From NCBI RefSeq assembly GCF_000376445.1, contig NZ_AQXI01000001.1, positions 1,272,962 to 1,336,961 of the forward strand: a stretch of DNA of 64,000 nucleotides, given 5' to 3'. Source of the stretch: Haladaptatus paucihalophilus DX253. Its GTDB lineage: Archaea; Halobacteriota; Halobacteria; Halobacteriales; Haladaptataceae. Position numbers and translations under genes: made by a program. Below are positions 32,798 through 33,870 of the stretch, piece after piece (position 1 is the first letter of the stretch; every line of letters begins with the position of its first letter). The notes below the pieces were generated by a model. It ran no database searches, was not told the origin of the DNA, and saw nothing but the letters and a program-made list of their open reading frames with translations.

Positions 32798-32904
32798 AAC
32801 CATCGTTTCGGGAGTAGACAGCACCTACAACGGGAACAGGACGCGATTACGACTAACGCGACGATAACTCGCACAAAAAAGACCGCCACTGACGACCGAG
32901 TTCG

Positions 32905-33681
32905 TCAGCAGAAGGAGTCACAGCCTTCGTGGATACAGCACCCGCTCGTCGTCGTGACGCAGTTTCCGGCCTTGTAGCCGGTGATAGAGCAGTCGAGGAG
33001 CTGACAGCACTGGACCTCGGTCTGGTAACAGCCGCAGACACTGTTCTCCGTACAACCGCAGTCGTCCGACGGATTGTGGTTACAGTCGCCGTACCAGCTC
33101 GTATCGCAGTTTCGCTGGACGGTCACGCCATCGTCGTTCGTCGTGATGACCTTCGTCGGCTCGTCGTCGGCGTCGGGTTCGACCAGCGCGAAGCTGCGGT
33201 CGACGTGGGGTTCGACCATGATGCGCAGTCTGCGGTCCGAGAGGCGCTTGATAATCTGGACCTGCGCCGTCGCCGTCCCCTTGTGGTCGTAGGAGAGGAC
33301 GATGACGCCGTTGTCGACCCTGCTGCTGTCTTGATGGGGAAGTACTTCGTCGATGCCGAGCGAGTCCACGCTCGCATCCTCCAACAGTCCGCGGTCAGAA
33401 AGCGCACGCAACAGCTCCCCACCGGTCGCTCGAACCGCCTTGCGGGCGACCGCCGGTGATTCGTGTTTCTTTGCGATCGAATTGAGCCGCTCCTTGGTCG
33501 GCGTCAGGTCGGGCTCCGCCGACGTGACGTTCGAAATCAGCGGCAGGGCAGCGAGCGACGCGGCGAGTCCCCCCGACGAACGGAGGAATCCACGTCGCTT
33601 CGTTTCCGTCTCGCGCGCCGATTCGTGAACGTCTCGGAGCACATCGCTTCGTCTGATATCGTCGTCGGAATCTCGTTGCAT
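32905..33681 (-). CDS. Tat-exported protein with 14-cysteine C-terminal domain (halocin-like candidate)
   Basis: This 258-residue protein has a long charged N-region, a twin-arginine motif KRRGFLRSS at about 28-36 and a hydrophobic h-region to about 50, so it is exported folded by Tat. Residues 60-185 form a polar domain. The last 67 residues (192-258) hold 14 cysteines, including CC pairs and GC/CGC clusters, and the final residue is Cys. Cysteine is rare in haloarchaeal proteins. The layout (Tat leader, spacer domain, Cys-rich C-terminal peptide) recalls the halocin C8 precursor, but no sequence match can be claimed. The ATG at 33681 is supported by a TATA box 30 nt upstream. Confidence 0.75.
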   Translation of the reverse strand: MQRDSDDDIRRSDVLRDVHESARETETKRRGFLRSSGGLAASLAALPLISNVTSAEPDLTPTKERLNSIAKKHESPAVARKAVRATGGELLRALSDRGLLEDASVDSLGIDEVLPHQDSSRVDNGVIVLSYDHKGTATAQVQIIKRLSDRRLRIMVEPHVDRSFALVEPDADDEPTKVITTNDDGVTVQRNCDTSWYGDCNHNPSDDCGCTENSVCGCYQTEVQCCQLLDCSITGYKAGNCVTTTSGCCIHEGCDSFC

Positions 33682-33706: not shown

Positions 33707-33714
33707 GATATAAA
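33707..33714 (-). promoter_or_regulatory. TATA box of the cysteine-rich protein gene
   Basis: TTTATATC on the minus strand lies about 30 nt before the ATG at 33681, within an unusually AT-rich stretch (33706-33770). This supports a leaderless transcript and the chosen start over an upstream GTG. Confidence 0.65.
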
Positions 33715-33870
33715 TTCATAGTCTAGATATCTTTATTTTAGTATATTTCTAGGAAATATAGAAGGTCGTATCAACCGCTCACCGACGTGGCGCTCGATTC
33801 GACCGAAGGTACCGCTCAGAAACTCGGATGGGCTCGAAGAGAAAACAGCGACCGATTCGATAGCCGACGG

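Follow-up and report, generated by a model that had tools for sequence, protein, structure and literature searches.

A Tat-exported haloarchaeal protein with a 14-cysteine tail is a candidate precursor of a secreted, disulfide-rich antagonistic peptide

We analysed a window of 64,000 nucleotides from Haladaptatus paucihalophilus DX253, in which a one-gene cassette lies between secD and a phosphatase gene. The initial annotation had placed this gene correctly at 32905-33681 but left its strand unstated; it is encoded on the minus strand. The gene and its signals comprise the following features.

32905-33681, minus strand: whole gene, a Tat-exported precursor of 258 amino acids (ATG at 33681, stop codon at 32905-32907), with orthologues in G007 (80% identical) and G027 (44%) and under purifying selection.
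33517-33681, minus strand: extended n-region and Tat signal peptide, residues 1-55, with KRRGFLRSS; the match to TAT_signal is below cut-off.
33109-33516, minus strand: Cys-free pro-domain, residues 56-191, with the motif VEPHVDRSFALVEP, defined from an AlphaFold2 model and family-wide conservation.
32908-33108, minus strand: Cys-rich tail, residues 192-258, with 14 cysteines, defined from sequence, conservation and cysteine counts.
33708-33718, minus strand: TATA box GAATTTATATC, largely kept in the G007 orthologue.
32875-32880, minus strand: T6 run 3' of the stop codon, a probable archaeal terminator; the G007 orthologue, too, has a T-run after it.

The proposed Tat motif, KRRGFLRSS, was found at residues 28-36, followed by a hydrophobic stretch and with no lipobox cysteine. 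Although the focal protein scored below the cut-off of the Pfam TAT_signal model (E=0.084), TAT models do match other members of its family, and Tat export is well supported. In several members, a motif like R(S/R)xVLxxV precedes the twin arginines by about 15-25 residues (33600-33660 on the minus strand of the window, and the same region of L003, L004, L009, L018 and L059), making the Tat n-region unusually long and partly conserved. The TATA box that had been attributed to the gene is present about 28-34 nt upstream of the ATG, the spacing expected of an almost leaderless transcript in haloarchaea. Together with the T6 run, it suggests that the gene forms its own transcription unit.

Downstream of the signal peptide, the reported spacer is indeed Cys-free, but it spans about 136 residues rather than 125. 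AlphaFold2, with 29 sequences in the input, modelled residues 61-190 with a pLDDT of about 84-97 per ten-residue block and predicted helices followed by six strands. A fold search with this model returned nothing from the PDB at E<=0.001. The domain carries a conserved motif, VxPxxxRSYAxV, and its mean pairwise identity across members is only 26%. That this pro-domain folds as a separate unit is strongly supported.

The last 67 residues contain 14 cysteines, far above chance, arranged in CC, CGC and GC groups and ending on a cysteine, exactly as first described. With a net charge of -8 and a GRAVY hydropathy score of -0.97 without Cys, the tail is acidic and hydrophilic. It gave no confident AlphaFold2 model, and its computed mass is about 7.14 kDa provided that all seven disulfides are formed. 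Across the family, the number of tail cysteines is even in 70 of 73 tails (counts of 6, 8, 10, 12, 14, 16, 20 and 22); by coin flip, such parity has a probability of 7e-18, a value that ignores relatedness. Kinship lowers the effective number of tails, but the low mean identity of the pro-domains (26%) limits this effect. For one odd-count tail, a further cysteine sits in the pro-domain of the same protein. This maintenance of even numbers is our main evidence for taking the tail cysteines as mutually paired. To judge from these counts, all cysteines of the focal 67-residue module are most likely joined in disulfides, and the focal protein very probably carries a secreted disulfide-rich module. 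Weak PDB sequence matches (beta-microseminoprotein, E 0.04) were regarded as chance.

Searching fetched haloarchaeal loci with a pro-domain profile that excluded the Tat signal identified 74 distinct members. Common to all 74 were a Tat signal and the Cys-free domain (residues ~60-190), which lacks cysteine in nearly all of them, and 73 carry a hypervariable Cys-rich tail. Within the taxonomic family of the source organism, 28 genomes were searched, and 19 of them yielded 36 matches. In 391 haloarchaeal genomes, a profile returned about 75 matches with E<1e-8, the majority extending well into the pro-domain. Weak hits (E>1e-6) from a profile that included the Tat region covered mostly the signal peptide and were dropped. 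Across 393 genomes of the phylum, the pro-domain profile matched nothing beyond the order to which the window belongs. A plasmid collection gave no match, and a pattern search of genome contigs, a method for which the alignment proved too variable, yielded no relative. The focal protein matched no Pfam, NCBIfam or PDB family above cut-off. Together, these searches strongly support a diversified accessory family, confined to haloarchaea as far as searched. The family has no model in the searched libraries, and a 2019 survey of archaeal antimicrobial peptides may include some of its proteins. One member matched Pfam DUF7776 below that model's cut-off, and this assignment was discarded. The window's own genome encodes a second member, L029 (G000:C3:49018-49659), on another contig and with a different, 10-Cys tail type.

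Strain-to-strain presence of the gene, a check put forward in the initial annotation, proved patchy. The phosphatase homology starts about 1105 bp after secD in the window's genome (G000) and in G007, with the focal gene alone between them; it starts 119 bp after secD in G008 and 114 bp in G001, where the site is empty. Because G027, G013 and G011 carry other family members directly 3' of secD (G027 with, additionally, a relative of the focal gene nearby), this site is a recurrent place for family members; tandem copies occur at other loci. SecD and SecF are components of the Sec path, so the adjacency to secD need not be functional.

Comparison with the G007 orthologue, which retains all 14 cysteines, showed that the reading frame is under selection: dN/dS, a gauge of selective constraint, is 0.06 for the Cys-rich tail against 0.16 for the spacer. 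The tail is also better conserved than the pro-domain in the G027 relative. In the focal lineage, the tail is the most constrained part of the protein, and the low dN/dS carries no arms-race signal. Other members behave differently. Two tandem copies in G002 have pro-domains that are 61% identical and tails that are 11% identical outside the cysteines (16 and 12 Cys). In G076, the identity between tandem copies is 59% for the pro-domain and 21% for the tail (12 and 8 Cys), and between the syntenic copies in G013 and G011 it is 77% and 50%, respectively (10 and 12 Cys). On these alignments, tails have been replaced on a retained pro-domain in members other than the focal lineage. Pro-domain and tail identity showed no correlation over all pairs, most of which are probably too diverged. 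A copy in G004, L013 (G004:C2:675332-675805), has a frameshift ahead of the tail, with the Cys-rich tail running on in another frame, and is probably a pseudogene or a sequencing error.

Several members have recurrent neighbours, none of which adjoins the focal gene. The genes of two of these were located as follows.

Polyprenyl-synthetase-like gene: L110:6561-7418, L153:6193-7041, L160:4157-5032, L157:4361-5248, L111:7512-8372 and L108:5131-5997.
A10 membrane protein gene: L068:682-1479, L108:8698-9510, L158:7132-7899 and L162:6014-6823.

The polyprenyl-synthetase-like protein (about 285 amino acids, YYDIxDDxxDxDV; Pfam polyprenyl_synt below cut-off) adjoins members in several loci. Among 80 genomes, 45 with the family and 35 without, we found nine copies, all nine in family-carrying genomes and seven of them adjoining members. 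Because the partnered members are scattered over several separate parts of the pro-domain tree, whose deep forks are weakly supported, a single inherited prenyltransferase adjacency is unlikely; the protein is a possible dedicated partner or peptide- or lipid-modifying enzyme. The A10-type membrane protein (EYTGxNRCxPCT, with a Cys-containing C-terminal part) belongs to a general haloarchaeal family present in 71 of the 80 genomes. Its four best-scoring copies and three others adjoin members (in G185, G348, G076, G115, G099, G084 and G344). At locus L068, a copy immediately follows the gene of a halocin-C8-type precursor. The protein is a candidate immunity or redox partner. The window's genome has two A10 copies, at G000:C3:307603 and G000:C1:992749. 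Further copies lie near precursor-like genes at L206 and L193: the first of these genes (L206:388-1341) encodes a Tat signal and 12 cysteines in the last 75 residues, with no match to the focal family or to the domain model of halocin C8, and the second (L193:2815-3753) encodes a Cys-containing precursor-like protein with a weak HalI-like match.

ABC ATPases adjoin a member once in G026 and twice in G149. At one G149 locus the ATPase is followed by an ABC-2 permease; its best model is DrrA resistance and a lantibiotic-protection model also matched, both below cut-off. Relatives of the Hvo_1808 surface protein, one of which carries an HELNH motif, adjoin six members. A TatC-like gene (L109:7913-10264) adjoins a member in G144, and Pfam TatC matches 2 of the 134 neighbours scanned.

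The annotation had likened the gene to halocin C8 precursors without equating the two, and we compared them directly. The mature halocin C8 sequence used is 100% identical to a stretch of a Tat precursor in G031 that matches the halocin C8 models, and is thereby verified. TIGR04449 recognizes halocin C8 with E=1.9e-15 and does not match the focal protein even at E up to 10, PF22862 (Hac8_like_N) recognizes the halocin C8 precursor with E=1.7e-48 and matches neither the focal protein nor 29 members, and NF040679 has no match in the focal protein. The family's members fit neither TIGR04449 nor PF22862. HalI, the immunity region of halocin C8, lies in the N-terminal part of its precursor; hhalign gave a probability of 0.5% for its relation to the focal pro-domain, so that no relation was detected. 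Only the predicted order of elements is alike, and the HalI model is poor. Thus the layout is alike, as the annotation had it, and by these comparisons the focal protein falls outside the halocin C8 family: it has the Tat signal and lacks the hydrophobic C-terminal peptide with 10 cysteines. That it might nevertheless belong to the family of halocin C8 precursors proper, having diverged from the others, seems to us improbable. A layout identical in kind, a similar predicted pro-domain order (helices, then about six strands) and the A10 neighbour common to other members and a C8-type precursor would fit such an origin, but all three models are unmatched, the pro-domain profiles fail to align and the tail differs in both cysteine number and character. 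The annotation had also offered metal clusters as an alternative to disulfides. Tat frequently exports cofactor-loaded proteins, and this route, the very high cysteine content and the CGC, CC and GC groups would all suit an exported metal-binding or electron-carrying protein with cysteines as Fe-S, Zn or Cu ligands. We nonetheless consider this explanation very improbable. Cysteine counts in the family are even, but many, including the common 10 and 14, cannot be divided by four, and cysteine spacing is hypervariable rather than fixed. In Pfam, NCBIfam and PDB, nothing among the Fe-S, Zn or Cu families scored above cut-off, on which basis a housekeeping metal or Fe-S protein was rejected. Because of these counts and the lack of such a match, disulfides are favoured over metal clusters.

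A disulfide-rich module need not be a toxin. The protein could instead inhibit extracellular proteases, halolysins among them, or serve in signalling or in binding to surfaces, with hypervariable tails tracking changing targets. Hydrophilic, loop-rich, multi-disulfide tails do look like inhibitor scaffolds, some members adjoin the secreted Hvo_1808 relatives, including the one with HELNH, and purifying selection acts strongly on the focal tail. However, the ABC transporters and the A10 membrane protein, which also stands beside a C8-type precursor, suit an antagonistic peptide better, and known inhibitor families are unmatched. We regard a non-toxin role as unlikely.

The reading that we favour, and consider probable, is that the gene product is a precursor from which a microhalocin-like antagonistic peptide, secreted and locked by disulfides, would arise, with a presumed killing activity. 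In support of this reading are the 74 members with one layout, the parity of tail cysteines, the constraint on the focal tail, tail replacement in other members, the patchy cassette and the relatives' partner genes. Against it count the absence of these partner genes at the focal gene, the lack of detectable relation between its pro-domain and HalI, the hydrophilic tail so unlike halocin C8, the low dN/dS without an arms-race signal and the lack of a confident tail model. Tat carries folded proteins, so the pro-domain would assist the tail in folding in the cytoplasm, a chaperone role that is our best reading of this domain, and would hold it inactive. The folded precursor would then be exported by Tat and cut by signal peptidase, and an extracellular protease, such as a halolysin, would cleave near residue 191. 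Proteolysis likewise frees the active C-terminal fragments of halocins C8 and H4 (PMC12893001, PMC11509114), and halolysins activate haloarchaeal secreted antagonistic precursors (PMC12893001). The released peptide of about 7.1 kDa would act on neighbouring haloarchaea in the fashion of a halocin; because the focal tail is hydrophilic and acidic, its target and mode of action may differ from those of halocin C8. Given that the cassette has no second gene, self-protection would fall to the pro-domain, which would perhaps double as the immunity part, as HalI does for halocin C8.

More tentatively, and as something we find quite conceivable without holding it to be probable, the family as a whole may form a haloarchaea-wide, fast-diversifying arsenal of disulfide-locked antagonistic peptides, each with its own chaperone/immunity domain, exported folded by Tat, with exchanged tails and, in some cases, dedicated partners. 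Such an arsenal would comprise one to several peptides per genome in the lineages that have them, and the prenyltransferase-like partner might have lipids or the peptide itself as its substrate. To our knowledge, few halocins are known at sequence level, halocin C8 being the best described. If our reading is true, a haloarchaea-wide family of multi-disulfide precursors that neither Pfam nor NCBIfam models would greatly enlarge the known repertoire of antagonistic peptides in archaea and would raise the question of how up to 22 cysteines are paired in a protein that Tat exports folded. Immunity, transport and possible modification can be approached directly through the partner genes of the relatives.

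Among known systems, defensins and conotoxins have even cysteine numbers, hypervariable loops and a pro-region followed by a C-terminal mature peptide. The focal family resembles them by principle only: we found no sequence relation, it uses Tat rather than Sec, and its pro-domain is larger, folded and Cys-free. Halocin H4 and the HlyR4-activated precursors of Haloferax mediterranei are secreted and activated by halolysin outside the cell, with H4 freeing a C-terminal fragment, but unlike the focal tail they are not described as multi-disulfide peptides (PMC12893001). Compared with halocin C8, the focal tail has 14 rather than 10 cysteines and is hydrophilic and acidic (GRAVY -0.97), whereas halocin C8 is hydrophobic (+0.64) and predicted to be helical. 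The focal precursor shares with the halocin C8 precursor (ProC8) a Tat signal, a one-gene organization, a Cys-free pro-domain (about 150-200 amino acids in the shared layout) and a C-terminal Cys-rich peptide ending in cysteine, and some members of its family share with one C8-type precursor the A10 membrane protein as a neighbour.
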